Assembly (NCBI RefSeq): GCF_002554795.1
Contig: NZ_PDEQ01000003.1
Coordinates: 62,001-126,000, forward strand
Length of the DNA stretch: 64,000 bases
Reading direction: 5' to 3'
Source: Longibacter salinarum
GTDB lineage: Bacteria; Bacteroidota; Rhodothermia; Rhodothermales; Salinibacteraceae
A program made the translations under genes and the position numbers. A model generated the notes under the pieces. The model was not told the origin of the DNA. It saw only the letters and a list, made by a program, of their open reading frames with translations, and searched no databases. Shown here in pieces: positions 17,990 to 33,529 of the stretch. The first letter of the stretch is position 1; the number at the start of each line of letters is the position of its first letter.

Positions 17990-19801
17990 ATGAGTTTAGG
18001 CTATTCACGATCGACTCCGTTCCTTCTCGCCGTTGCGCTTCTCACATTGGCCTTCGTCTGCATTCCCGATGACGGCCGTGCCCAACCGGTGCCCGTCACC
18101 AAGATCGAAAATGCCGCCGGCGACTCGGTGCTGACCGTCTTTGAGGACGGTAGCTTCGCGGCCTACGGGGAAGAAGGCACCGGCACGATTCCTATCCAAG
18201 GCGAAGGCGCGCGGATGATGTGGTATCCCAACAAGGCCGCCTTTCGTGCTGGGGAAGTCACCGGTACGCAGTGGGACGAAGCCAATGTCGGTGAACACTC
18301 GGTAGCGTTCGGATTGGACACGGACGCCACCGGGGTACGATCCACCGCCATGGGCTTAAGTTCGAGTGCCGCGGGCAACGGGTCTACGGCGATGGGCAAC
18401 GGGACCCTTGCCAGCGGCACCGGGGCCGTGTCAATGGGCAACCTCACCCGAGCTGAAGGGGACGAGTCTACGTCGATGGGCGATCGCACAGAGGCCGCGA
18501 CCGACCAATCCCTCTCCATTGGCCGATACAACGACGCCAACACCTCCGTCGACAATACTCTCTTCGTGGCCGGCAACGGCTCATTCAGCAGCCGCTCCGA
18601 TGCGCTGGTGCTCGACTACAACGGCAATATGACGATTGCCGGCACGCTCACGGAGAACTCCGACCGCCGTCTCAAAGAGCAGATCCAGCCACTCGCCGGC
18701 AGCATTCTCGGCAAGCTTGGTCACATTCGACCAGTACACTTCCGCTTCAAAGATAAGCGCACCCACCCTTCGGGCACCCAGCTCGGCCTTATCGCGCAGG
18801 AAGTGCAGTCGCAGTTTCCCAGGCTCGTCAGTGAGGGCGCGAGCGGGTATCTCTCCGTCTCGTACTCGAAATTCACGGCCGTCTTGTTGAAGGGCCTACA
18901 GGAGCAGCAGTCGCAAATCCAGGAGCAGTGGAAGCAAATCGATCGGCTGGAGGCGGAGCAGGCCAAGGTCGCGTCGCTGCGCAAGGAGAACGACGCCATC
19001 AAAAAGCGACTGGCCAGGCTGGAGCAGGGAGAGACGGACGCTGCCGCGTACGCAGGATGGAGCGCGTCGGCCCCTCTCGGCGGCCTGCTCGCGCTGTTGC
19101 TGCTTGCCGGTGGTGTCGTCGCGTGGCGGCGCTTCGACGCTCTTTCAAGCATCAAGACCCTGACAGGTCTGTTGGCAACGGGCCTGCTGGTGATCGGGAG
19201 TATTCTCGCTGCCCCGGTTGCGCACGCCCAGGCCACCTTCGCCGTGGAGCTCACGGACGAGGGCCACAAAACCCTGAAGGTCCTCCAAAAAGCCGGAGCA
19301 GACAGCGAGGCCTATGAGCGGCTAAACCGCGACGCCCGGCAAATGAAAGGGGGCGACGAAAATCCTAACCTGTGGATCCACCGCCTGCTGGCCGAGCACA
19401 CGCGCTTCGTCTATAAAGGATCGAGCCCCGTCAAGGCGCGGCTGGTGATGCTTCTTACCGACGGCAATGGCGACGTGCGAGAGCGCTTCCAGAGCGACCC
19501 ATTCAAGCTGAAACCCGGTGGGCACGCAACCGGCACGTTCTTTCCCGGCGATACACTCTTTCCAGGTGATACCCTATTTCCCGGCGATACGCTCTTCCCG
19601 GGCGATGCGCTTTCCCCTACCCATTCGTTCACGTCCCGGGAGGCCCAGGCTCTTGGCCGGCGCGGAACGGCCAAGAGCCTGCTCGGCAACTTGAAAAAAG
19701 GGCAGCGCGGCCTTGTCGTGGCGCTTGTCCCGGCGGGCGATGCGCTGGACGGCAAGGTGAGGCTCACAACGATGGGACTGGCGCTTAATCCGGTTCGGTA
19801 G
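17990..19801 (+). CDS. YadA-head / peptidase-S74 surface protein fused to an unknown secreted domain
   Basis: A 603-residue multidomain protein. Residues 1-31 are a signal peptide (cleavage near RA-Q). Residues 35-100 form a short N-domain (VFEDGSFAAYG). Residues 104-180 contain 14-residue YadA-like head repeats with STAMG, AVSMG and SLSIG cores. The S74 intramolecular-chaperone domain follows, with the autocleavage and catalytic motif SDRRLK at 224-229 and GLIAQEVQSQFP. Residues 303-346 are a coiled coil. Then come a membrane helix (362-379), Arg380-Arg381, a second hydrophobic stretch (391-410) and AHA-Q at 411-414, a signal-peptidase-like site. Residues 415-603 are a separate domain I do not recognise, with a GDTLFP repeat. 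The layout suggests a polyprotein. Start codon and leader match the gene at 25817. Confidence 0.82.
   Translation: MSLGYSRSTPFLLAVALLTLAFVCIPDDGRAQPVPVTKIENAAGDSVLTVFEDGSFAAYGEEGTGTIPIQGEGARMMWYPNKAAFRAGEVTGTQWDEANVGEHSVAFGLDTDATGVRSTAMGLSSSAAGNGSTAMGNGTLASGTGAVSMGNLTRAEGDESTSMGDRTEAATDQSLSIGRYNDANTSVDNTLFVAGNGSFSSRSDALVLDYNGNMTIAGTLTENSDRRLKEQIQPLAGSILGKLGHIRPVHFRFKDKRTHPSGTQLGLIAQEVQSQFPRLVSEGASGYLSVSYSKFTAVLLKGLQEQQSQIQEQWKQIDRLEAEQAKVASLRKENDAIKKRLARLEQGETDAAAYAGWSASAPLGGLLALLLLAGGVVAWRRFDALSSIKTLTGLLATGLLVIGSILAAPVAHAQATFAVELTDEGHKTLKVLQKAGADSEAYERLNRDARQMKGGDENPNLWIHRLLAEHTRFVYKGSSPVKARLVMLLTDGNGDVRERFQSDPFKLKPGGHATGTFFPGDTLFPGDTLFPGDTLFPGDALSPTHSFTSREAQALGRRGTAKSLLGNLKKGQRGLVVALVPAGDALDGKVRLTTMGLALNPVR
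19543..19612 (+). repeat. 18-bp coding tandem repeat (GDTLFP x4)
   Basis: About four 18-bp units encode the hexapeptide F-P-G-D-T-L, with the last unit varied to GDALSP. Synonymous third-base differences between units show the repeats are not freshly copied, but the array could still change by slippage in steps of six residues. Confidence 0.8.
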
Positions 19802-19872
19802 TGTGGTGGTTAGTTTTCATCCGTTCCCGTGAACGCGTTTCGACTCTTCTTCCCTTCCGCCCCCCACGTCCG

Positions 19873-21963
19873 ATGTCAGATTTTCCCTCCTCCTCTTCGT
19901 TTCGATGCGCTGCCCTGCTGCCGGCGCTACTCATCCTTGTCTTTGCCGGGCGGCCGACGCTCGCGCAAGACGCGCCCAACCGCTTCCCCGTCTACCAGGA
20001 CGGGGCGTGGGGCTACATCGATTCGACCGGGACGATGGCCATCTCGCCGCAGTTCGACGAGGCCGAGCCGTTCTCTGATGGACGCGCACGCGTTAGGGAA
20101 GGGGATCAGCAGAAGTTCATCGACGCGACCGGCGAGGTGGTGCTGGAAGGGGCTGCTGCACACGTTGGCTCCTTCCATGAAGGCCGCGCGGTCATACAGC
20201 CGAATCCCGACGGCCCATTTGGATACATCAACAAACGCGGGGCCGTTGTCATCGCCCCAAAGTTCGACAAGGCCCATGCGTTCTCCGAAGGCCGGGCCGC
20301 CGTCGCCACCGGCGAAGACCCGAAGCGTGGACAACCAATGTTCGGTTACATCGACCGGGACGGGCAGTTCGTGGTGGAGCCGCAGTTCTCGGGCGGCGGG
20401 CGTTATGCCGACGGGCTGGCCCCCGTACAGACGGGCGGGTTCGTGCACGGGAAATGGGGCTACATCGACGAACAGGGTGACATGGTGATCGAGCCGCAAT
20501 TTGCGGAAGCATTGCCCTTTTCGGACGGCCTCGCTGTTGTAGCCGTGGAAACGGGATTCGGCGAATCCTGGGGCTACATCGATGTGGAGGGCCGACGGGT
20601 CGTTGAGCCGGACTTCGAACGCGTGCATCGGTTCGCCAGCGGCGCGGCCCCTGTGAAGCGAGAGCGCCGCAGGTGGACGTACATCGACGCGGAGGGAGAG
20701 CCGGCTTTCGAGAAAAAATTCGCGTATGCTGAGCCGTTCCGTGGGCCGCTGGCGCGTGCGGCAACGGAAATCAGCGACAAGATGCGAAATCACGTCACCC
20801 TTTCCTCTAGCGTAGGCGACGGGGACTGGATCTATATCGACCGGGATGGGCAAAAGGTGTGGCCGGCTCCTGCCTCGCCCGCTGCGGCCGAAGCGCCGAT
20901 AGCGGTGGAAGAGGCGGCTCCTGCCGAAGAGAAAACATCTTCGAATGCCGATGACCCGTTCGTCACCCGATTCGAAGCCCTGCTGCCCGACGAACTCCCC
21001 GGCGGCTTCGCGCGCACCGACGTGGAGAAAAACCTCGGGGGCGACAAGCCCAACGTGAAGAGCACCTACGAAGGCGAAGCGGGAGCGCTCGAAATGAGGC
21101 TGGGCCGCGTTCGCACGGGCTGGAGCGAAGCACGCGCCAAGATGGATCAAGGGGCGACTGTGCAGGAAGCCATGATAAAAACCACGTACCGAGATCATGC
21201 CGCCTACGAGCGAACGCCTGACGGCGACGAACGGCAGATTTTCGTCGTGATCGACCCCGGCGCCCTGGTCGTCTCGGTTACCGCTCCCCCCGACGGACCG
21301 CCCATTCAGGATCTCCGCAGCGCGCTGGGTGCGCTGGACTGGGATCAGATCGAAACGCTCGCGCAGGATGCCCCCGAAACGGCTGCTGCCCCCACACCTC
21401 CTGTGAACGCCCCGGACGGCTTCGCCACCTACGCGGCGGAGGTCGGCGGTGCGCAAGTGGCCTTCGCTCATCCCGAAGACTGGGCGGTGGTTGACCTCAG
21501 CTTGATGAACTCGCTTCTGAAAAGCATCGTCGTCATGCGCAGCAGAGAGGCCGCCCAGAAACAATTTGGGAACGGAGTCGACCTGTCCACCAACGATGAG
21601 CCGCGCCTCGTCACGCCCGATAATGTGGTCATAACGCTTGGGGTGATCAACGACGGGCCGACGCCGAAGCAGTTCGTGCAGAGCATCGTCCAGGATCCTC
21701 CGCTACGCGAAGCGGACGTCACCGAGCCCCGTAGCGAGACGACTGTGAACGGGCGTGCCGCACTGGCGGCCACCATGCGCGGCACCGACGCAGACGGCCA
21801 CCCTGCGATCCATCGAGTCCTCGCCTTCACAACAGACGACACGCTGATTTTCGCATCCATCCTGCGCCCGCCCGAAGACCCGTCGGATGCTCGCACGGCC
21901 GTACAGACGCTGCTCGACCACCTCACGGTGGAGACGATGCAAGTCAGAGTGCAGACGCAATAG
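19873..21963 (+). CDS. WG-repeat secreted protein
   Basis: A 696-residue exported protein from the ATG at 19873; the frame is open back to 19801 but the signal peptide (ALLPALLILVFAGRPTLAQ) fits the later start. Residues 30-330 hold about eight WG/KWG repeats of roughly 32-40 residues, each with a W/F-G-Y-I-D core, a PQF-like centre and a DGLA/EGRA end. These are predicted to form a beta-propeller-like binding surface. A low-complexity Ala/Glu linker (about 335-360) leads to two alpha/beta segments, the second (LSLMNSLLKSIVVMRSREAA) resembling stress-type secreted proteins of unknown role. It starts 72 bp after the first S74 gene and may share its transcript. It converges with the kinase gene. 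Confidence 0.8.
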   Translation: MSDFPSSSSFRCAALLPALLILVFAGRPTLAQDAPNRFPVYQDGAWGYIDSTGTMAISPQFDEAEPFSDGRARVREGDQQKFIDATGEVVLEGAAAHVGSFHEGRAVIQPNPDGPFGYINKRGAVVIAPKFDKAHAFSEGRAAVATGEDPKRGQPMFGYIDRDGQFVVEPQFSGGGRYADGLAPVQTGGFVHGKWGYIDEQGDMVIEPQFAEALPFSDGLAVVAVETGFGESWGYIDVEGRRVVEPDFERVHRFASGAAPVKRERRRWTYIDAEGEPAFEKKFAYAEPFRGPLARAATEISDKMRNHVTLSSSVGDGDWIYIDRDGQKVWPAPASPAAAEAPIAVEEAAPAEEKTSSNADDPFVTRFEALLPDELPGGFARTDVEKNLGGDKPNVKSTYEGEAGALEMRLGRVRTGWSEARAKMDQGATVQEAMIKTTYRDHAAYERTPDGDERQIFVVIDPGALVVSVTAPPDGPPIQDLRSALGALDWDQIETLAQDAPETAAAPTPPVNAPDGFATYAAEVGGAQVAFAHPEDWAVVDLSLMNSLLKSIVVMRSREAAQKQFGNGVDLSTNDEPRLVTPDNVVITLGVINDGPTPKQFVQSIVQDPPLREADVTEPRSETTVNGRAALAATMRGTDADGHPAIHRVLAFTTDDTLIFASILRPPEDPSDARTAVQTLLDHLTVETMQVRVQTQ

Positions 21964-22128
21964 CAGCGGCAGAAAAGTCCCTCTGCATGATGGGGATGGA
22001 CCCGGCGATCATCGAGATGCTGCGCGGGCTTGACAGGTGAACCGGCATTGCTCCGAGAGAGACTCTTTTCCCTCTCTGAACGCATCCCCAACCTGCGCCA
22101 TGACCCATTCCGGATGCGACACGACCCG

Positions 22129-24714
22129 CTAATTTGCGACAGCCAGCGAGTCACGCCATGCAGCCGCCTGGTCTGGCCTGCCCCATTCATCGTAGAACTG
22201 GACGAGGTGTCGGAGGGTTTGTCGGGTGTACGGGTCGTCGGAGCTGCGCGTGCGCCGGAGTGTGGCGTGGGCGTCGTGCAGCAGTGGCTCGGCCTCGGCG
22301 TAGCGCTCCCGGGCAGCAAGGGACGCGCCCAGGAAGCTTTTTGACTCGGCGGCTTCCCAGCTTTGAGGACCGCGCTTTTCTTTGCGGATGGCGAGACTTT
22401 CGCGAAGAAGTGAATCCGCCTGACCAGGCGCCCCGGCGGCGATGAGGGCGGCGCCCAGTCCATTGAGCGCGTCAGCGACGTAGACGTGGTTGTCTGGCAC
22501 ATGCTCACGCAGACTCGTCAGAGCGGTCCGGTAGACCGGCGTGCTCGCGTCGTGCTTATCCTGGGCGCGAAGCGTGTGGCCCAGCGCCGTTCGGCTCAGC
22601 GCGATGCGGACGGCGTGCTCGGGGTAGCGGCTCTGGCGTACCTGCAGCACGGCGCGTTGCAGTTCCTCGGCTCGGTTGAGACGTCCCGATTCTCGGTATA
22701 ACTCGGCTTGATTGCTCCGGGCGACGAGGACGTACGGATGATGTTCTCCCATCACCTCCGTTCCCATCTCGAGCGCCTCACGATAGAGCGAGTCGGCAGC
22801 GGGGTAGTCGCCTTCGCGATGACGGATCTCGGCCAGGTTGGCAAGCGCGACGGGCAAAACCTCCTTTCGTTCACCGTCCAGCCGTCGCGCCATCGTAATT
22901 GTTTCGCGCAGGACCGGCCTGGCAGCGTCGTAGTCGCTTTGCGCGCGGAGAATGCCGGCCAGATTGTTGAGCGTTTCGACCATCGTTGTGCGCCGGGCGT
23001 CCGGCAAGGTGCGCCAGTACGTCAGCGCTTCACGATAGAGGCGCTCGGCCCGCTCGACCTCGTTCAGCACCTGCTGGTTGGCCCCGAGGTTGTGCAAGCT
23101 GGAGGCCAGTTGTTCAGAAGAAGCGGGGTCGTCGGTCGGGAGGGCGCGGCGCGTGGACAATGCTTCTTCGAGAAGCGGCGTGGCCTTGGCGTAGCGGCCC
23201 ATCTGTGTATACACGCGCCCGATGACAGATTGCACCTCGGCCTGGACGGCCGGCTGGTCGGCAAGCGCCTCGGTACGCTCGACGCCGCGCGCCAGCAGCT
23301 CTCGGGCGGTAATCGTGTCCCCCTGAGCGACATTGGGGTTTCCAGCTTCGAACAGGCTCGTCAGAAAAGCGGACACCTGCTCGGCCTTCTCCGCGTGCAT
23401 CTGTGCCCGGTCACGCTCGGTGGCGAGGCGGCGCGACTGCACGGTGACGGTCGTGGCATATCCAGCCAGAAGCAGTACAAGCACGGCGGCAGCGGCCACG
23501 CGCCAGCGGTTACGACGGAGGAACTTGCTTGCGCGGTATTGCCACGTGGAGGGGCGGGCCTCCACGGGCAGCCCCTCTCGGTAGCGACGCAGGTCTTCGG
23601 CAAACTCGGCAGCTGAGGCGTAGCGGCGAGACGGTTCTTTCCGAAGCGCCTTCATGATGATGCGGTCGAGGTCGCCTCGGAGGCGGCGCTTCAGGCGCGC
23701 GGGTGGAGGAAGGGGAGACGAGGACGGTTCGGGAGTGTCCGCCGTCGAGTCCCGTCGCGCGGCCGCCGTCGAGGGAGGCTCCGGGCGGGTTTCACAGATG
23801 ACTTGTTCGATGTGACTCGGCGTGCGTTTGTCGAAGCGATAGGGCCGCCGGCCCGTCAGCAGTTCGTAGAGCACGACGCCGAGCGCGTACACGTCGGTGG
23901 CCGGAGTAATTGCCTCGCCGCGCACCTGTTCGGGGGCAGCATACGCAGGCGTCATCAAAGTGCGACCCGTGCGCGTGACAGGGGCGTCCACAATCGCTTC
24001 GTCGTCCAGCAGCTTGGCAATGCCAAAGTCTAGCAGCTTCGGGGAGCCGTCGGCGGTGACGAGCATGTTGGACGGCTTGAGGTCGCGGTGGACAACGAGC
24101 GTGCGGTGCGCATGAGCAACGGCATCGGCCACCTTTTCAAAGAGCCGGAGCCGCTGATCGATAGAACAAGCGGCCTCCTCGCAGTAGCGATCCAGCCGCG
24201 TGCCGTCAACGCGCTCCATCGCAAAATAAGGGCGCCCGTCACCTGAAAGGCCGCTGTCGTAGAGGCGTGCGATGCCCGGATGCTCCAGCGAGGCCAGGAT
24301 CTGGCGCTCCGCCCGGAAGCGCTGCTCAATGTTTTCGGAGGGCAAGCCGGGCCGAATCACTTTCAGGGCAACCTCACGCTCGTGCTGGCCATCCGCACGG
24401 ACGGCGCGGTAGACGGCTCCCATGCCGCCGCGTCCGAGCAACCCGTTGAGACGGTACGGCCCGATTCGAGCATCGTCGTCGAGCGCCGCCTCGCTCCCGA
24501 ACAGGGAATCGGCCCGTTCCGCCTGTGGTATCCCCTCACTCAGAAAGCGGGAGACCTCCCCGTCGTTACCGGCCAGTAGTGATTCCACCTCCACCCTCAG
24601 GTCCTCGTCTCCAGCGCAGGCCTCGTCCAGAAACGCCTCGCGCTCTTTTCCTGCCGGACGGTCGAGCGCTTCGTCGAGGACGTCTTTCACACGATTCCAG
24701 CGGTCGGGGGTCAT
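22129..24714 (-). CDS. Transmembrane Ser/Thr protein kinase with C-terminal TPR domain
   Basis: An 861-residue kinase. Residues 1-60 carry the DRWNRVKDVLDEALD and AFLDEAC segments typical of bacterial kinases paired with ECF sigma factors. The Hanks-type kinase domain (about 85-360) has the Gly loop GRGGMGAVYRAV, the invariant Lys in VALKVI, the catalytic loop HRDLKPSN, DFGIAK and the APE motif. A basic linker precedes one membrane helix (about 415-436, AAAVLVLLLAGYA). The rest, to 861, is a run of tetratricopeptide repeats in the periplasm, for example GDYPAADSLYREALEMG. It lies 85 bp downstream of the ECF sigma gene on the same strand, so the two form an operon. In such pairs the kinase is thought to control the sigma factor or its targets. 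Confidence 0.93.
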   Translation of the reverse strand: MTPDRWNRVKDVLDEALDRPAGKEREAFLDEACAGDEDLRVEVESLLAGNDGEVSRFLSEGIPQAERADSLFGSEAALDDDARIGPYRLNGLLGRGGMGAVYRAVRADGQHEREVALKVIRPGLPSENIEQRFRAERQILASLEHPGIARLYDSGLSGDGRPYFAMERVDGTRLDRYCEEAACSIDQRLRLFEKVADAVAHAHRTLVVHRDLKPSNMLVTADGSPKLLDFGIAKLLDDEAIVDAPVTRTGRTLMTPAYAAPEQVRGEAITPATDVYALGVVLYELLTGRRPYRFDKRTPSHIEQVICETRPEPPSTAAARRDSTADTPEPSSSPLPPPARLKRRLRGDLDRIIMKALRKEPSRRYASAAEFAEDLRRYREGLPVEARPSTWQYRASKFLRRNRWRVAAAAVLVLLLAGYATTVTVQSRRLATERDRAQMHAEKAEQVSAFLTSLFEAGNPNVAQGDTITARELLARGVERTEALADQPAVQAEVQSVIGRVYTQMGRYAKATPLLEEALSTRRALPTDDPASSEQLASSLHNLGANQQVLNEVERAERLYREALTYWRTLPDARRTTMVETLNNLAGILRAQSDYDAARPVLRETITMARRLDGERKEVLPVALANLAEIRHREGDYPAADSLYREALEMGTEVMGEHHPYVLVARSNQAELYRESGRLNRAEELQRAVLQVRQSRYPEHAVRIALSRTALGHTLRAQDKHDASTPVYRTALTSLREHVPDNHVYVADALNGLGAALIAAGAPGQADSLLRESLAIRKEKRGPQSWEAAESKSFLGASLAARERYAEAEPLLHDAHATLRRTRSSDDPYTRQTLRHLVQFYDEWGRPDQAAAWRDSLAVAN

Positions 24715-24799
24715 GGCACGTGGGAATTGGGGAAATGCAGGAGTTCGGAATTGTCAGTGAGTGAAGGCGTGTACGTAGAGGCAAACGCCTGTGGCGTCA

Positions 24800-25375
24800 T
24801 CACGCCGATTCCATTCGCTTGATCTCGCGGGACAGCCAGGCTTTAGCCGTGCGCCAGTCACGCTTGACGGTGGAGGGGGAGACGTCGAGTGCGGCAGCGG
24901 TTTCCTCGATTGTCATTCCACCGAAGAAGCGGCATTCGACGATCCGACTCTGGCGCTCGTCAATGGCAGCGAGACGGTCGAGCGCCTCGTCGAGCGCAAC
25001 GAGACGATCGGCTTGCTGGTCGACAGCGATCCGGCCCTCGTCGATCGTAAGATGGGGGGCGTCCCCACCCCGCTTCTGTGCCTGCCGCTTGCGCGCGCGG
25101 TTGATCACAACCTGGCGCATCGCCCGGGCCGCCACCCCGAAAAAGTGGGAGCGGCCCTGCCAGTCCACCGCATGGTGATCGACGAGCTTGCCGTAGGCTT
25201 CGTGCACCAACGCCGTTGTGCGCAGCGTGATGTCGGGGCCTTCGCCGCGCAGTTCGAGGTGCGCCAGTCGGTGCAATTCGTCGTAGACCAGCGGCAGCAG
25301 CGCATCGAGCGCTTCACGATCCTCTTCGCGAAGACGCTCCAGCAGGTGCGTCACCGTGCTGGGAGAATTGGGCAT
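24800..25375 (-). CDS. ECF sigma factor (TIGR02999-like, paired with Ser/Thr kinase)
   Basis: A 191-residue ECF sigma factor from the ATG at 25375, where MPNSPSTVTHLLERL matches the usual family start. Region 2 shows LLPLVYDELHRLAHLELRGEG and ALVHEAYGKLVD, then WQGRSHFFGVAARAMRQVVINRARKR for -10 recognition. Region 4 shows VECRFFGGMTIEETAAALDVSPSTVKRDWRTAKAWL, a helix-turn-helix for -35 recognition. This composition matches the sigma group found next to Ser/Thr kinases in Acidobacteria, Planctomycetes and Rhodothermota. No classic anti-sigma factor is present, so control through the kinase downstream is likely. It is divergent from an S74 gene across a 441-bp region, which makes that gene a plausible target. 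Confidence 0.92.
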   Translation of the reverse strand: MPNSPSTVTHLLERLREEDREALDALLPLVYDELHRLAHLELRGEGPDITLRTTALVHEAYGKLVDHHAVDWQGRSHFFGVAARAMRQVVINRARKRQAQKRGGDAPHLTIDEGRIAVDQQADRLVALDEALDRLAAIDERQSRIVECRFFGGMTIEETAAALDVSPSTVKRDWRTAKAWLSREIKRMESA

Positions 25376-25530
25376 AGGGAGCAGCAGTGTTCTGAAAACC
25401 AGCGGAGGATTCGGGATTTCTTCGCCCATTGGCGGGGCGTACCGCGTGCGCAAACAACGAAGCGTCGGTCTCAATTGCATCCACGGTGCGACGGCTCTTC
25501 TTCCGCACAGGGCATTTTGATGCCTTCAAG

Positions 25531-25816
25531 TGTCACGATAATGTAACGAGAAGTGAAAGAGCCACGCTTCTCCGATATGCCTGACCCAGTTGACGGTGAT
25601 TTCTTGCATGTAATAGTGAGGGAGGTATCGGTTCTTCTGCACCCGTCTCTGGACGTGCAGGATGTTCATGGCGGCGAGGGGCGTTCGCTGCCTGCCGACG
25701 CCGACTCCTCGATTGCGCCATTTTTCGCACACCTCCTTTCGCGTCTCCTCGTGCACCGTGCGACCGCTCGGTGACCGTAGACGCTTCCCTTTTCTCTGGA
25801 ATGACACCGCCTCGTC
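25531..25816 (+). promoter_or_regulatory. Conserved divergent regulatory region, copy 2
   Basis: It corresponds block by block to 17714-17989, starting with tgtcacgataatgtaac and ending at gtcatgag at the S74 start codon. It lies between the ECF sigma gene start (25375) and the second S74 gene (25817). The remaining piece, 25376-25530, also matches the leader retained by the sigma-kinase remnant near 17565-17700. Shared non-coding conservation suggests a functional leader or promoter. Confidence 0.55.
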
Positions 25817-28087
25817 ATGAGTCTAGGCTATTCACGATCGACTCCGTTCCTTCTCACCGTTGCGCTTCTGACACTGGCCTTCGTTTGTCTGCCCAACGAC
25901 GCCCGCGCCCAGACGCGCGCCCTCAACGTAGACGACGCCGATGGCGACAGCCTCGTCCACGTCAACGACGACGGCGGCTTCGCGGTCTACGGCGAAAGCG
26001 GCACCGGCGCGATTCCCGCCACCGGGGCCGGCACACGGATGATGTGGTTTCCCAACAAGGCGGCCTTCCGCGCTGGAGAGGTAGACGGCACGCAGTGGGA
26101 TGATGCTAACGTCGGTGAACACTCGGTCGCGTTCGGATTGGACACGGACGCCGCCGGGGTACGATCCACAGCGATGGGGTTAGCTTCGAGTGCCAAGGGC
26201 AACGGGTCTACGGCGATGGGCAACGGGACCCTTGCCAGCGGCACCGGGGCCGTGTCAATGGGCAACCTCACCCGAGCCGAGGGGGACGAGTCTACGTCGA
26301 TGGGCGACCGGACAGAGGCCGCGACCGACCAATCCCTCTCCATCGGCCGATACAACGACGCCAACACCTCCGCCGACAACACCCTCTTCGTGGCCGGCAA
26401 CGGCTCATTCGGCAGCCGCTCCGATGCGCTGGTGCTCGACTACGACGGCAATATGACGATTGCCGGAACGCTCACGGAGAACTCCGACCGCCGCTTGAAG
26501 GAGCAGATCCAGCCGCTCAGCAGTGGCGTCCTGGCCCCTCTCGGCAAAATCGAGCCGGTGCGCTTCCGCTTCAAAGATAAGCGCACCCACCCTTCGGGCA
26601 CCCAGCTCGGCCTTATCGCGCAGGAGGTGCAGGCGCAGTTTCCCGCGCTCGTCAGCGAAGGGGCGAGCGGGTATCTCTCCGTTTCCTACTCGAAGTTCAC
26701 GGCCGTCTTGCTGAAGGGCCTTCAGGAGCAGCAAGCCGAGATCGCACGGTTAGAGGCGAAGCAGGCGAAGGTCGCGTCGCTGCGCAAGGAGAATGAGAGC
26801 ATCAAGAAGCGGCTGGCCAAACTGGAGCAGCAAGAGCAGGACGAGGCCGCATACGCAGGATGGGGCGCGTCCGCACCGCTCGGCGGCCTGCTTGCAATCT
26901 TACTGCTTGCTGGTGGTTTTGTCGCGTGGCGGCGCGTTCAAGCTCAGTCAAGTGCCAACACCCTGACAGGTCTGGTGGGGACGGGTCTGTTGGTCATCGG
27001 GGGGCTCCTGGCCGCCTCGACCGGTGAGGCCCGCGCCCAGCCGGTGCCCGTCACCGACGTCGAAAACGCCGCCGGCGTCTCGGTGCTGACGGTCTTCGAG
27101 GACGGAGGCTTTGCGGCCTACGGCGAAAGCGGCACCGGCGCGATTCCCGCCACCGGGGCCGGCACGCGGATGATGTGGCACCCCGCCAAGGCTGCCTTCC
27201 GAGTCGGCGTAGTTGGCAGGGGCTCCGAAAGTACCGGCGATGAGTGGGACGACACCAATGTTGGATTCGCCTCAATGTCCTTCGGAAATGGCACCAAAGC
27301 CAGTGGCTTCAAATCTACCGCAATGGGCGATAACACAACCGCAAGCGGTGAATCGTCTACTGCGATGGGTACGCAAACAACTGCCAGCGGTCTCAACACT
27401 ACGGCGATGGGTGAAAGAACGACCGCGACCGGGATCCGGTCCACGGCGATGGGCCTATTTACGAATGCCGCGACTGATAATTCACTCTCCATCGGCGTCT
27501 ACAACGATGCCAACCGGGGGAACGACGACAGCGACCCAAGCACAGGCCCGCTCTTCGTCGTTGGCAACGGCTCCTTTGGTAGCCGCTCCGACGCCTTGGT
27601 GCTCGACCAGAGCGGCGATCTCGAAATCAGCGGTACGCTCACCGAAAACTCCGACCGCCGTCTCAAAGAGCGGATCCAGCCACTCGGCAGCAGCATTCTC
27701 GGCAAGCTTGGTCACATTCGACCAGTACACTTCCGCTTCAAAAACGAAGCGACGCATCCTTCGGGCACCCAGGTTGGCCTCATCGCGCAGGAGGTCCAGG
27801 CGCAGTTTCCCGCGCTCGTCACTGAGGGCGCGAGCGGGTATCTCTCCGTCTCGTACTCGAAATTCACGGCGGTCTTGCTGAAGGGCCTTCAGGAGCAGCA
27901 GGCCGAGATCGATCGGTTGGAGGCGAAGGCGAACCGCATCGACCAGCTTGAAGCACGGCTCGCAAAGCTGGAGCAGCAGGACACGTCACGCCTGGCCGCA
28001 CTAGGGGGGCCGTGGTGGGCTGCGGCTCTGCTCGCCCTTGGACTGCTGGGCCTCGGCCTGTTCGTGCAACGGCAAAAGCGCGCATGA
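25817..28087 (+). CDS. Double YadA-head / peptidase-S74 polyprotein
   Basis: A 756-residue protein made of two complete units. Unit 1 (1-372): signal peptide, N-domain, 14-residue head repeats, S74 domain with SDRRLK at 223-228, coiled coil (302-340), membrane helix (355-371) and Arg372-Arg373. It is followed by a second hydrophobic stretch (383-402) ending in EARA-Q (404-408), a signal-peptidase-like site. Unit 2 (409-756) restarts with PVPVTDVENAAG, the same N-domain motif that follows the signal peptide in the other S74 proteins, then a head with STAMG repeats, an S74 domain with SDRRLK at 612-617, a coiled coil and a terminal membrane helix closing with QRQKRA. Unit 2 thus shows the ancestral single-unit ending. 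The gene looks like two consecutive genes joined by loss of the intervening stop. Confidence 0.84.
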   Translation: MSLGYSRSTPFLLTVALLTLAFVCLPNDARAQTRALNVDDADGDSLVHVNDDGGFAVYGESGTGAIPATGAGTRMMWFPNKAAFRAGEVDGTQWDDANVGEHSVAFGLDTDAAGVRSTAMGLASSAKGNGSTAMGNGTLASGTGAVSMGNLTRAEGDESTSMGDRTEAATDQSLSIGRYNDANTSADNTLFVAGNGSFGSRSDALVLDYDGNMTIAGTLTENSDRRLKEQIQPLSSGVLAPLGKIEPVRFRFKDKRTHPSGTQLGLIAQEVQAQFPALVSEGASGYLSVSYSKFTAVLLKGLQEQQAEIARLEAKQAKVASLRKENESIKKRLAKLEQQEQDEAAYAGWGASAPLGGLLAILLLAGGFVAWRRVQAQSSANTLTGLVGTGLLVIGGLLAASTGEARAQPVPVTDVENAAGVSVLTVFEDGGFAAYGESGTGAIPATGAGTRMMWHPAKAAFRVGVVGRGSESTGDEWDDTNVGFASMSFGNGTKASGFKSTAMGDNTTASGESSTAMGTQTTASGLNTTAMGERTTATGIRSTAMGLFTNAATDNSLSIGVYNDANRGNDDSDPSTGPLFVVGNGSFGSRSDALVLDQSGDLEISGTLTENSDRRLKERIQPLGSSILGKLGHIRPVHFRFKNEATHPSGTQVGLIAQEVQAQFPALVTEGASGYLSVSYSKFTAVLLKGLQEQQAEIDRLEAKANRIDQLEARLAKLEQQDTSRLAALGGPWWAAALLALGLLGLGLFVQRQKRA

Positions 28088-28208
28088 CATCGTCCAGCGC
28101 TCGTACGAACGGATAATCGCACGCCAGTGCAGACTGATACCGAAAATCTTCCTCGCCCCAACGACCCACGCCATGAACGCTCTACTAGAAAACCATCGCG
28201 ACCCAACC

Positions 28209-30677
28209 ATGTCCACGGATCGCTCTTCCCTCTTGACGTTTGCCTTCGCCGTTTTCCTCGTGTTGGCGCTCGCCCCGACCGGTGAGGCCCTCGCCCAGCC
28301 AGTGCCCGTCACCGACATCGAAAACGCCGCCGGCGACTCGGTGCAGACGGTCTTCGAGGACGGCGCTTTCGTCGCTTACGGCGATTCCTTCAACGGCACA
28401 ATTCCCGCAGAAGGAGAAGGCACACGGATGATGTGGCATCCTGCAAAAGGCGCGTTACGCGCCGGAGATGTGGACGCTACGGAATGGAACGACGCAAACA
28501 TCGGTCTATACTCAATGGCTTTCGGCTCCGACCCCATAGCCAGCGGTCCAGCTTCCACAGCAATGGGCCGAGATACGGAGGCTAGCGGCGACGAGTCCAC
28601 AGCAATGGGAAGCCTGTCGATCGCCAGTGGTGAACATTCCACGGCGATGGGTGTGAGCACGACGGCCAGCGGCGACGAGTCCACGGCGATGGGCGACGGT
28701 ACAGAAGCCAGTGGCAACTCAGCCACCGCGATGGGCGACGGTACGGAAGCCACCGCCCCCCAGTCCACGGCGATGGGCTTCGAAACGACGGCTAGCGGGA
28801 CTGATGCTACCGCGATGGGTCGTCGCGCCGAAGCCAACGGCACACATTCCACGGCGATGGGGGATAACACGATTGCGGAGACCGATCAGTCCCTATCCGT
28901 CGGCGCGTACAACGACGCCAACACCTCTCCCGACAACACCCTGTTCGTCGTCGGAAACGGCGAGGACACCATCTCCAATCCTGACGACCGTTCCGACGCG
29001 CTCGTGCTCGACCGAACCGGCAATCTCACCATCTCAGGCAGCCTCACCCAAAACTCCGACCGCCGCCTCAAGACACAGATCCGGCCGCTCGGTGCCAGCG
29101 TCCTGGCCCCCCTCGACGAGATTGAGCCGGTCCGCTTCCAGTTCAAAGACGAGCGCACCCATCCGTCGGGCGAGCAGATCGGTCTCATCGCGCAGGAGGT
29201 GCAGGCGCAGTTTCCCGCGCTCGTGAGCGAAGGGGCAAGCGGGCACCTCTCGGTCTCGTACTCGAAGTTCACCGCCGTCTTGCTGAAGGGTCTCCAGGAG
29301 CAGCAAGCGCAAATTCAAAAGCAGAAGGAGCAGATCGAGCGGCTACGTGGGCAGCAAACGCAGATCGCCGCGCTGCAGGCGGAGGTTGATGCGTTGAAGG
29401 AAGGACGATCGCAAACCGCGGGCTGGGGTCCGGCGGCAGGCGGGCTACTCGGGTTCCTACTTCTCGGCGGATGCATTGTGGCCGTCCGGCGGTGGGGCAC
29501 GCCGCACGCCGCCTCCCTGTTGGTCCTGGCAGGTATGGGGGCGCTACTCCTCGGAACCGCGCCGGCCTCGGCGCAGACGGTCACCATTCAAAACGGCGCT
29601 TCGGTGAGCGTGGAAAACGGCAGCGTCTTCGACCTCGGCACCAACACTGTACTTGTGGAAGAAGAATCCTCCGGCGCCCGGCTCACCGGCGGCACCGGCG
29701 TCGTCACCGCCACACGTACCGTCAACGCGCCCTCCAGCGTCGATGTGGCCGGCCTTGGCGCAGTCATCACCTCCAGCCAAGACCTCGGCCAGACGACGAT
29801 TGTGCGCGGCCACGCCGTGCAGACCGACAACAACAACGAGAGCATCGCGCGCTACTACGACATCCAGCCGGGACAGAATAACAGCGGCCTGGATGCGACC
29901 CTCGAGTTTACATATGTCGACGCCGAGCTCAACGGGCTGAGTGAAAGCAGCCTGGTTCTCTTCCGCTCGGAGGACGGCGGCAGCACGTACACCACGGCCG
30001 GCTACGACAGCCGCGACGCATCGGCCAACACCGTCACCCTCGGCGGCATCGACTCCTTTAGCCGCTGGACGCTTGGCGACGAAAGCCAGCCGTTGCCGGT
30101 GGAGTTGGCCGGGTTCGAGGTCACCCGCTCCGACGACAGCGTCCTGCTGCAGTGGGCAACTATCTCCGAACAACAAAACGCCGGCTTCGAGGTGCAGCGG
30201 CGCCGGGCCCACGCTCCGAATGGGAGCTGGAAGGAGATCGGCTTCGTCGAGTCGGCGGCTGCGGGAGGCACAACCACCGGGTCGGAATCCTACCGCTTTG
30301 CCGACACGGATCTCCCGTTCGAGGCCGACTCGCTCACCTATCGCCTCCGGCAGGTCGACATGGACGGGAGTGCGACGCTGAGCGACCCGATCGTCGTCGC
30401 GGTGAACGCGCCCGAGACGCTGGTCCTGCACGGTGCAGCCCCAAACCCGGTGCGCGGCCAGGCAACCCTCCGGTACGAGGTGCCGGAACAGGCGTCGGTT
30501 CGCATTGACCTGTTCGACGTGCTGGGCCGGCGGGTCACCACGCTCGTGAACCGAAAAGAGGTCGCGGGCCGGCAGAAGACGACCTTTGATGCGAGCCGCC
30601 TGTCGAGTGGGACGTACTTCGTACGCCTGCAATCCGCGGGCACGGTACGCACCGAACAGATCACCGTCGTCCGGTAG
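28209..30677 (+). CDS. YadA-head / S74 protein fused to a T9SS cargo domain
   Basis: An 822-residue protein from the ATG at 28209; the frame is open further back to 28038 over the end of the previous gene, but the signal peptide (FAFAVFLVLALAPTGEALA-Q) fits this start. The N-domain is followed by an extended head of eight 14-residue S/T-TAMG repeats (117-220), the S74 domain with SDRRLK at 283-288, a coiled coil (361-398), a membrane helix (409-426), Arg427-Arg428, a second hydrophobic stretch (435-452) and ASA-Q (453-456). Residues 457-625 form a beta-rich domain, then a strand-rich segment starting LPVELAGFEVTR, and finally a T9SS type-A sorting domain (about 735-822: APNPVRGQATL, FDVLGRRV, SSGTYFVRL). 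The C-terminal half resembles a complete T9SS cargo in itself. Confidence 0.85.
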   Translation: MSTDRSSLLTFAFAVFLVLALAPTGEALAQPVPVTDIENAAGDSVQTVFEDGAFVAYGDSFNGTIPAEGEGTRMMWHPAKGALRAGDVDATEWNDANIGLYSMAFGSDPIASGPASTAMGRDTEASGDESTAMGSLSIASGEHSTAMGVSTTASGDESTAMGDGTEASGNSATAMGDGTEATAPQSTAMGFETTASGTDATAMGRRAEANGTHSTAMGDNTIAETDQSLSVGAYNDANTSPDNTLFVVGNGEDTISNPDDRSDALVLDRTGNLTISGSLTQNSDRRLKTQIRPLGASVLAPLDEIEPVRFQFKDERTHPSGEQIGLIAQEVQAQFPALVSEGASGHLSVSYSKFTAVLLKGLQEQQAQIQKQKEQIERLRGQQTQIAALQAEVDALKEGRSQTAGWGPAAGGLLGFLLLGGCIVAVRRWGTPHAASLLVLAGMGALLLGTAPASAQTVTIQNGASVSVENGSVFDLGTNTVLVEEESSGARLTGGTGVVTATRTVNAPSSVDVAGLGAVITSSQDLGQTTIVRGHAVQTDNNNESIARYYDIQPGQNNSGLDATLEFTYVDAELNGLSESSLVLFRSEDGGSTYTTAGYDSRDASANTVTLGGIDSFSRWTLGDESQPLPVELAGFEVTRSDDSVLLQWATISEQQNAGFEVQRRRAHAPNGSWKEIGFVESAAAGGTTTGSESYRFADTDLPFEADSLTYRLRQVDMDGSATLSDPIVVAVNAPETLVLHGAAPNPVRGQATLRYEVPEQASVRIDLFDVLGRRVTTLVNRKEVAGRQKTTFDASRLSSGTYFVRLQSAGTVRTEQITVVR
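28550..28870 (+). repeat. 42-bp coding repeats of the YadA-like head
   Basis: Eight 14-codon units encode a pattern centred on S/T-T-A-M-G, followed by T-x-A-S-G. Adjacent units are alike but not identical at the DNA level. The array is longer than those in the two other S74 genes, so unit number varies between paralogues. Confidence 0.8.
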
Positions 30678-31455: not shown

Positions 31456-32442
31456 ATGTCTCGCACGCGCTGGCTTCTGGTACTTGCCGCGGTTTGCGCG
31501 GTGGTTCTGACGGGCTGCAGCGGCGCTGAGGAGGGGGCGGATGCTGCAACCCCGCAGCCTCTCTTGCTCACCCCGTCGGATGGCGACGTTTTTACGACCG
31601 AGAGTACACTGGACCAGACGATTGAGATGACAATCATGGGCCAGACGGTCGAGATTATGCAGACCATTCAGGAGAACACCGAATGGCGGGTCGGTACGGA
31701 GTCTTCCGACGGGACGGTCGACGTTCAGGTTACGACGACACGTTTTCAGCTGACGCAAGAAGGGCCGGACTCGTTCGAGCAGTACGATAGCGACGATCCC
31801 GACGCCGTGCCGCAATCGGATCTGGCCGTTCGCATGGCGGCCCTGGCCAATGTGCCCGTAAGGATGCGTATCACGCCAACGGGCGAGATCACCATCACGG
31901 GTGGAATGGACGCTCTGTACAACAATATGGCGGATCTGTCGGGAGCGCAATCGCGGACGGAGCGGGACTCAATCCGTGCCTATTTCCGGAATGCATTTCC
32001 GACCGAGGAACTGGCTCAAGAGTACGAATCTGATCTTCCTGCCTACACGAGCGAGCCCGTGGCGCCGGGGTCCACCTGGACCGTTCACGCCACAACGTCG
32101 TTCCTCGCACCGATTCGTTTCGACGGCTCCATGCGTCTTGATTCGCTGACGGGACACCGGGCATTTATCAGTGGGCGCGGCGACGTGCAGTCCGTGCCGG
32201 TTGACAGCGTCAGCGGTTCTATAAACGGTCCATTTCAGGACGTCGACCTGAGCGGGACACGCACCGTGTCTTCCGCGCTTCACCGCCGAACGGGCTTTCC
32301 GATTCGGCGAACGGTCGAGCAGCGTGTTAGCGGGGACGGCGTTATACGATCCGGCGGGGGGGATCTCAAGGCTCAGGTTACGCTCACATCCACAATCTCA
32401 CAAACGGCGAACGTACAATCGCCGTCGGAAGCAATACCGTAA
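31456..32442 (+). CDS. Lipoprotein of the DUF6263-like type, paralogue 1
   Basis: A 328-residue lipoprotein: the signal peptide ends in LTGC, followed by an acidic Ala-rich linker. The mature part has the pattern DQTIEMTIMGQTVEIMQTIQENTEWRV, a conserved VPVRMRITPTGEI near residue 135 and an ending with EQRVSGDG and STISQT. The same order of motifs occurs in the next gene (DQSVDMQMMGQNMQMEQS, VPIRFTMTEKGQI), so they are tandem paralogues. The layout matches DUF6263-type exported proteins, but function is unknown for that group. The gap to its paralogue is 121 bp. Confidence 0.75.
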   Translation: MSRTRWLLVLAAVCAVVLTGCSGAEEGADAATPQPLLLTPSDGDVFTTESTLDQTIEMTIMGQTVEIMQTIQENTEWRVGTESSDGTVDVQVTTTRFQLTQEGPDSFEQYDSDDPDAVPQSDLAVRMAALANVPVRMRITPTGEITITGGMDALYNNMADLSGAQSRTERDSIRAYFRNAFPTEELAQEYESDLPAYTSEPVAPGSTWTVHATTSFLAPIRFDGSMRLDSLTGHRAFISGRGDVQSVPVDSVSGSINGPFQDVDLSGTRTVSSALHRRTGFPIRRTVEQRVSGDGVIRSGGGDLKAQVTLTSTISQTANVQSPSEAIP

Positions 32443-32563
32443 CGTGGTGGCATTTCACTGCACGGGACATGTACCCTCTATCCTCGTGCAGATACTACGC
32501 ATTCGGCTTTCGGGCCGCGTGTTAACTCATATACTCTTTCCCATTTCCCTTTTCGGTCATCTC

Positions 32564-33529
32564 ATGACGTTTCTTTCTCGCTTTCGCACGCTTGGCGTGC
32601 TCACCATCGTTTTAACGCTTTTCGCTGTCGCCGGATGCTCGTCATCTTCGGCTCCCGCCTGGAAACAGGGAGACGCCTACATCCTCGGTCTTCGAGTGAA
32701 TGAAGGAGAGTCGTTCTCTGGTACCATGGCGATGGACCAATCCGTCGACATGCAGATGATGGGGCAGAACATGCAGATGGAGCAGTCCATGACGTACGAC
32801 TACGGGTACGACGTCATCTCGCGCTCCGATGACGGCCTGATTACCATTGAGCAGACGTTGCAGCGCGTCCGCGGTGAGACCAAGAATCCAATGGCGGGAA
32901 CGCAGACGTTCGATACGGACAACGAGGAGGATGCCGCCCAGATCGGCGAGCAGATGACCGCGATGATCGACGTTCCGATCCGTTTCACGATGACCGAGAA
33001 GGGCCAAATTGAACGGGTCGAAGGCGTTGATGCCCTCGTAAAGCGGATGCAGGACCAAGCGATGACGGATGCGCAGCGCGAGATTCTGGAGGAATCGCTG
33101 ACGCCGGAGTCCTTCACCCAGAACATGCAGGCCTTCACATTTTACCCGCAAAATCCCGTTGCTGTTGGTGACTCGTGGGATGTGAAGAGTGAAATGAAGA
33201 TGGCGTTTCCGATGACGACCGAATCGACATATACAGTGACGCGCGTAGAAGCCGACACGGCGTATCTCGACGTGGAAATGGATGTGTACACGCCGGATGA
33301 TGCCGAACCCATGGAGATGGGCGGCGGAAAAATGACGATGGATATGACGGGCACGATGATCGGCACCGCGAAAGTCGATCTCGTCTCTGGTATGATGACA
33401 GATGTCGCTCTGGATCAGAACATGGAGGCGGACGCTGTCATCGACGCTCAGGGTCGTACCATGGACATGCAGATGTCAATTACCGGGACATCGACTCAGA
33501 CGCTCACAGGCCTCGGAGAGCCGAAATAG
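32564..33529 (+). CDS. Methionine-rich DUF6263-like lipoprotein, paralogue 2
   Basis: A 321-residue lipoprotein from the ATG at 32564; the frame is open back to 32324 but the signal peptide and lipobox VAGC fit the later start. It follows the same plan as the upstream paralogue. It is strikingly rich in methionine, for example MAMDQSVDMQMMGQNMQMEQ and MEMGGGKMTMDMTGTMIG. Such clusters can bind copper or silver or absorb oxidants, yet Met here replaces hydrophobic strand residues also seen in the paralogue, so no metal role is proven. Convergence on one beta-rich fold is likely. Confidence 0.75.
   Translation: MTFLSRFRTLGVLTIVLTLFAVAGCSSSSAPAWKQGDAYILGLRVNEGESFSGTMAMDQSVDMQMMGQNMQMEQSMTYDYGYDVISRSDDGLITIEQTLQRVRGETKNPMAGTQTFDTDNEEDAAQIGEQMTAMIDVPIRFTMTEKGQIERVEGVDALVKRMQDQAMTDAQREILEESLTPESFTQNMQAFTFYPQNPVAVGDSWDVKSEMKMAFPMTTESTYTVTRVEADTAYLDVEMDVYTPDDAEPMEMGGGKMTMDMTGTMIGTAKVDLVSGMMTDVALDQNMEADAVIDAQGRTMDMQMSITGTSTQTLTGLGEPK

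Follow-up and report, generated by a model that had tools for sequence, protein, structure and literature searches.

Predicted membrane hairpins formed by gene fusion in S74 proteins of Longibacter salinarum and a putative surface polyprotein system

Three S74 genes and their surroundings

The window analyzed here is a 64,000-nucleotide stretch of the genome of the salt-lake bacterium Longibacter salinarum (assembly GCF_002554795.1, 4.4 Mb in 22 contigs; contig NZ_PDEQ01000003.1, positions 62,001 to 126,000). It contains three forward-strand genes for proteins of 603, 756, and 822 residues, each matching the Pfam families YadA_head and Peptidase_S74. The open reading frames (ORFs) and Pfam matches bear out the layout that the initial annotation had proposed for all three, namely, a signal peptide, YadA-like head repeats, an S74 domain with the motif SDRRLK, a coiled coil, and a transmembrane (TM) helix. 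They also agree with its description of what lies beyond the helix, and the residue positions can now be given exactly. At three places, the helix (TM1) is followed by a short Arg-containing loop, a second hydrophobic stretch (TM2) ending in AxA/Q (the slash marks the predicted cut), and a new extracellular domain. Only the head repeats recall YadA, since the YadA β-barrel anchor was absent from the S74 proteins in Pfam and NCBIfam scans, which places them outside the trimeric autotransporters.

The first fusion (603 residues; 17990-19801, +) begins with a signal peptide and YadA head, followed by an S74 domain (18659-18901, +) whose first residue is the Ser of SDRRLK, the predicted self-cleavage site. 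After the coiled coil comes TM1 (residues 361 to 379; 19070-19126, +), recognized by hydropathy and equivalent to the C-terminal anchor of unfused relatives, and then the Arg/Lys loop RRFDALSSIKT (residues 380 to 390; 19127-19159, +). TM2 (residues 391 to 413; 19160-19228, +) is the putative internal signal peptide; it ends in VAHA/Q, with the cut predicted between A413 and Q414, and leads into a secreted domain with FPGD repeats (19229-19801, +). A secreted WG-repeat protein (19801-21963, +) begins about 70 nt past this fusion and may share an operon with it.

The second fusion (756 residues; 25817-28087, +) consists of two complete YadA head-S74-TM units with a hairpin between them (26873-27037, +). 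Its S74 domains lie at 26483-26725 (+) and 27650-27892 (+). The hairpin comprises TM1 (residues 353 to 371; 26873-26929, +), the loop (residues 372 to 382; 26930-26962, +), and TM2 (residues 383 to 407; 26963-27037, +), the last ending in EARA/Q with a predicted cut between A407 and Q408. Unit 2 had been pointed out as an example of an unfused end, and this is what we found: its C-terminal anchor (28013-28087, +) is a TM helix followed by QRQKRA and a stop codon. A Ser/Thr kinase with TPR repeats (22129-24714, -) and, beside it, an ECF sigma factor (PF07638; 24800-25480, -) occupy the opposite strand between the S74 genes.

The third fusion (28209-30677, +) has 822 residues counted from its own ATG, within an ORF of 879 residues. 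Its YadA head, S74 domain (29055-29297, +), and coiled coil are followed by a hairpin (29436-29573, +) made of TM1 (residues 410 to 426; 29436-29486, +), the loop RRWGTPH (residues 427 to 433; 29487-29507, +), and TM2 (residues 434 to 455; 29508-29573, +), which ends in ASA/Q with a predicted cut between A455 and Q456. The remainder (29574-30677, +) is a type IX secretion system (T9SS) cargo with a type A C-terminal sorting domain, matched by Por_Secre_tail at residues 745 to 818 (43.1 bits; cut-off, 27) and by TIGR04183 (40.6; cut-off, 23). Both the T9SS protein SprA and signal peptidase I are encoded in the genome. Downstream of the S74 cluster are two adjacent lipoprotein-like DUF6263 genes (31456-32442 and 32324-33529, both +), probably duplicated.

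Unfused relatives and the origin of the hairpin

We scanned a 1.2-Mb sample of the L. salinarum genome (939 approximate genes) for the arrangement of a soluble secreted domain, TM helix, short loop, second TM helix with AxA/Q, and second soluble domain, and found only the three junctions described above; the remaining matches were transporters or chance. The initial annotation had also proposed a search for this order in other genomes. A profile spanning the S74 domain to beyond AxA/Q, searched over 245 genomes of the class, found the full hairpin in only six genes of a single genus, three in L. salinarum and three in its sister species. All other matches to the profile end at or before about column 170, which corresponds to the end of TM1.

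Related genomes encode these parts individually. There, an S74-coiled coil-TM gene that closes with RR and a stop codon usually precedes a gene for a T9SS cargo that begins with a signal peptide of its own. Within the family, S74 genes that end in this way, with coiled coil, TM helix, short basic tail, and stop codon, are common (six genomes), and unfused S74-TM copies are also present on two contigs of L. salinarum itself. Farther away, in the wider Bacteroidota, S74 proteins stop after the coiled coil or bear a T9SS-like tail directly. In five such loci with tails recognized by eye, the S74 coiled coil is joined to a C-terminal sorting domain with neither membrane hairpin nor internal signal peptide in between. 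The S74 matches on viral contigs were all distant (no more than 44% identity; best E value, 9e-16).

The cargo part of the 822-residue protein has stand-alone homologs, the best of which are 50 to 55% identical over nearly the full length. An S74 gene adjoins the cargo homolog in 9 of the 12 best, at loci in genomes of the same family and elsewhere in the L. salinarum genome, and the gap between the S74 stop and the cargo start is 46 to 78 nt in the four loci where it was measured. Unfused loci of the family (e.g., L043, L044, L048, and L058) resemble the third fusion in proteins, gene order, and signal peptide end but have two genes rather than one ORF. In three others, an extra YadA-head-like secreted gene stands between the S74-TM and T9SS-cargo genes, which suggests a conserved adhesin-cargo gene cluster.

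The N-terminal signal peptides of the stand-alone cargo genes align with the third hairpin, and their ends coincide with its internal AxA/Q (GGAQAAHA/QTLKI and FHIRPATA/QTLNV versus GTAPASA/QTVTI in the window). The same holds for the C-terminal domain of the 603-residue protein, a member of a stand-alone family of secreted proteins of about 220 residues that have FPGD-like repeats and occur throughout the class, and whose signal peptide site aligns with the internal VAHA/Q (LLSAQA/QPTFGVHLSEE versus APVAHA/QATFAVELTDE in the window). This domain matches no Pfam family, and its AlphaFold2 model, built from an alignment of only two sequences, has a pLDDT of 57. The sites align in two partner families that are unrelated to each other. 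On this basis, TM2 is taken to have been a signal peptide and TM1 the anchor at the C terminus of the S74 protein. The alignments thus show the hairpin to be an anchor and a signal peptide, originally on separate proteins, joined by gene fusion. The internal signal peptidase sites and polyprotein-like arrangement suggested initially stand up to this comparison, which adds that TM2 was once the signal peptide of the neighboring gene.

Predicted cleavages and other readings of the hairpin

All four S74 units of the window score well above the PF13884 cut-off of 22 (48.6 to 103.3 bits), and SDxxxK keeps its S, D, and K without exception in these four units and throughout an alignment of 20 diverse members. 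Sequence searches with the S74 segment retrieved solved S74/ICA domains, with MYRF and a phage neck appendage protein among them, both weakly, and the Ser and Lys of the window domains align with those of GP12 and MYRF. A single-chain AlphaFold2 model has a pLDDT above 90 over much of the S74 domain and the C-terminal coiled-coil helix; with this S74 model, Foldseek found the MyRF ICA domain as the best match (E value, 5.8e-6), followed by the phage ICAs 3gw6 and 3gud. Taken together, the modeled fold and the alignments show an ICA fold with a Ser-Lys dyad, like that of MYRF and the phage chaperones, in keeping with the S74 reading of the initial annotation. The MYRF dyad cuts only as a trimer (PMC8326128), and Bdellovibrio S74 fibers self-cleave at the equivalent Ser of SDxxxK, as shown with an S782A mutant (PMC10769870). 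Given the fold match, the invariant dyad, and these two precedents, self-cleavage at the Ser of SDRRLK seems likely in the L. salinarum proteins.

At the hairpins, an h-region, AxA, and Q at +1 are present at all six junctions of the two species. According to the so-called Q-rule, cleavage by signal peptidase I in Bacteroidetes leaves most of its substrates with a Gln at the N terminus, which is later cyclized (PMC5837995, where Salinibacter and Rhodothermus are unmentioned), and Q is the commonest +1 residue in the signal peptide-like N termini of this genome (71/174). We scored the sites with a home-made signal peptidase matrix trained on 145 N termini of the same genome. The best cut was AxA/Q in each of the six TM2 segments, with scores between the 36th and 88th percentiles of real signal peptides; among 860 internal TM segments taken from other genes, just 0.7 to 8% reached an equally high score, and TM1 segments scored lower. 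Since the training rule demands AxA-like sites, the test is partly circular and serves as supporting evidence.

Each loop has two or three basic residues and, by inspection of the sequence, acidic flanks outside, from which the positive-inside rule predicts that the loop lies in the cytoplasm and not in the periplasm. AlphaFold modeling, also proposed initially, confirmed the S74 fold and gave no support to the hairpin turn: TM1, loop, and TM2 were drawn as a single continuous helix of low confidence, so the model is no evidence on topology.

It could be that the fusions are genuine and the internal site stays uncut, with the hairpin acting as a stable two-helix anchor and two extracytoplasmic domains remaining on one chain. 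The middling site scores of the 756-type junctions and a TM2 hydrophobicity equal to that of a normal TM segment would fit such an anchor. However, AxA/Q is kept at every junction and aligned with the signal peptide ends of stand-alone relatives, and a T9SS cargo held by its N terminus in the inner membrane could not be exported, judging from how the T9SS works. This makes an uncut hairpin unlikely, although it is the likeliest of the alternatives.

Much less probable is that the TM-RR tail, instead of being a plain anchor, is recognized as a sorting signal and processed by an enzyme resembling exosortase or rhombosortase. The genome does code for an exosortase X, but such signals are normally C-terminal and here the stretch is internal, and the rhomboid matches fall under the rhombosortase cut-off. 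None of the CTERM sorting families searched for (PEP-, GlyGly-, and PID-CTERM) exceeded its cut-off on the S74 TM-RR tails, the best match to any C-terminal sorting family being JDVT-CTERM with 16.1 bits (cut-off, 27). The exosortase X gene adjoins a polysaccharide-export-like gene.

The nearest species, represented by the Great Salt Lake metagenome-assembled genome (MAG) GSL.Bin3, belongs to the same genus, in a family that also includes a Salinivenus MAG. GSL.Bin3, which was assembled independently, has counterparts of all three junctions. A 628-residue gene is the counterpart of the 603-residue protein, and the other two junctions, including the counterpart of the hairpin in the 756-residue protein, share one ORF, which holds two S74 units and as many hairpins. 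Its contig ends eight residues past the last junction, inside the cargo, so that in this draft MAG, with the end of the ORF beyond the contig, there is probably one triple fusion in place of the two genes of the window. Between the two species, the individual junctions have dN/dS values of 0.12, 0.29, and 0.15 over the loop and TM2, and the pooled value over 96 codons is 0.20, with 25 synonymous and 15 nonsynonymous changes against a random expectation of about 70% nonsynonymous (P of about 3e-5). By this codon comparison, loop and TM2 are under purifying selection.

This selection bears on two further explanations. The downstream proteins might arise mainly from internal start codons in the long ORFs, the fusion being only apparent; start-like TTG, ATG, and GTG codons do exist within TM2. 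However, starts there would give truncated signal peptides devoid of basic residues, no start codon is conserved in the loops, the expected place for a signal peptide to start, which speaks against separate initiation, and loop codons are under amino acid selection in the long frame. We give this idea slightly less weight even than the sorting signal. Hardly credible at all is that stops were missed in the ORFs through faulty sequencing or assembly, a concern raised initially, or that these are decaying functionless fusions: the second genome is admittedly a low-coverage MAG (1.7 to 2.7 by its contig names), but two assemblies made independently share the junctions, at about 0.2 to 0.6 synonymous substitutions per site, under purifying selection and with no frame-breaking indel, and this excludes the missed stop.

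A putative surface polyprotein and its known counterparts

We favor gene-fusion hairpins whose chains would be split by signal peptidase I and by S74 self-cleavage, with a probability of roughly three in four; the fusion origin is shown by the alignments, whereas the cleavages, topology, and fate of the fragments are predicted. An S74-type trimeric adhesin gene with a predicted C-in anchor fused in frame with a downstream gene for a secreted protein, whose signal peptide was kept. Because the end of the anchor and the start of a signal peptide are both cytoplasmic, such a fusion leaves the topology undisturbed. In the course of Sec export, the head and S74 would cross outward, the Arg loop would stay inside, and the rest of the chain would cross outward in turn. 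The second protein, be it an S74 unit, the FPGD-repeat protein, or the T9SS cargo, would be freed by a signal peptidase I cut at AxA/Q, and the trimerized S74 domain would cut its own chain at the Ser of SDRRLK and free the YadA-like head. The S74 domain, coiled coil, and TM hairpin would stay in the inner membrane.

We lean, by a small margin of confidence, toward a further reading in which these genes form a surface polyprotein system, with one ORF giving rise to at least two extracytoplasmic proteins (probably three in the sister species) through the two cleavages, in fixed ratios and with adhesin heads and T9SS partner co-localized. The fusions may provide such fixed ratios or may merely be tolerated, as signal peptidase renders them harmless. 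In either case, the locus would offer a natural case of how a bacterial polyprotein can originate, from a C-in anchor lying beside a signal peptide: two secreted genes can fuse harmlessly since signal peptidase restores both proteins. The gene neighborhood also ties S74 adhesins to T9SS cargo, and the Q-rule together with the SDRRLK site predicts the exact ends of the fragments.

The arrangement had initially been thought to have no described counterpart, which is too strong, as its components are known separately. The closest in build are the MYRF/MrfA proteins, in which self-cleavage releases the N-terminal part of a membrane-bound transcription factor (PMC3742443, PMC8326128). Like the proteins described here, they have an N-terminal trimeric part, an S74/ICA domain with a Ser-Lys dyad, a C-terminal coiled coil, and then a TM helix, so that L. 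salinarum has a bacterial S74 protein built like MYRF, predicted to form a trimer with a self-cleaving chaperone, coiled coil, and TM helix. However, MYRF and MrfA are eukaryotic, reside in the endoplasmic reticulum, free a transcription factor, and lack an internal signal peptide that introduces another secreted protein. The MAT fibers of Bdellovibrio (S74 group) are likewise bacterial secreted trimeric fibers with an S74 domain that self-cleaves at the Ser of SDxxxK (PMC10769870). They differ in ending, as described, in the S74 domain, with no TM hairpin or second protein reported.

A search of the available literature for bacterial polyproteins processed by signal peptidase returned none. 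A known case is fbcH, the cytochrome b/c1 polyprotein of Bradyrhizobium, in which one ORF gives two proteins through a signal peptidase cut after an internal signal sequence. Its products are respiratory-chain subunits, in contrast with the self-cleaving chaperone, secreted adhesin, and T9SS cargo of the fusions described here. Bacterial polyproteins of this sort have rarely been described; the parts of the L. salinarum system are known, and it is their combination that is new.
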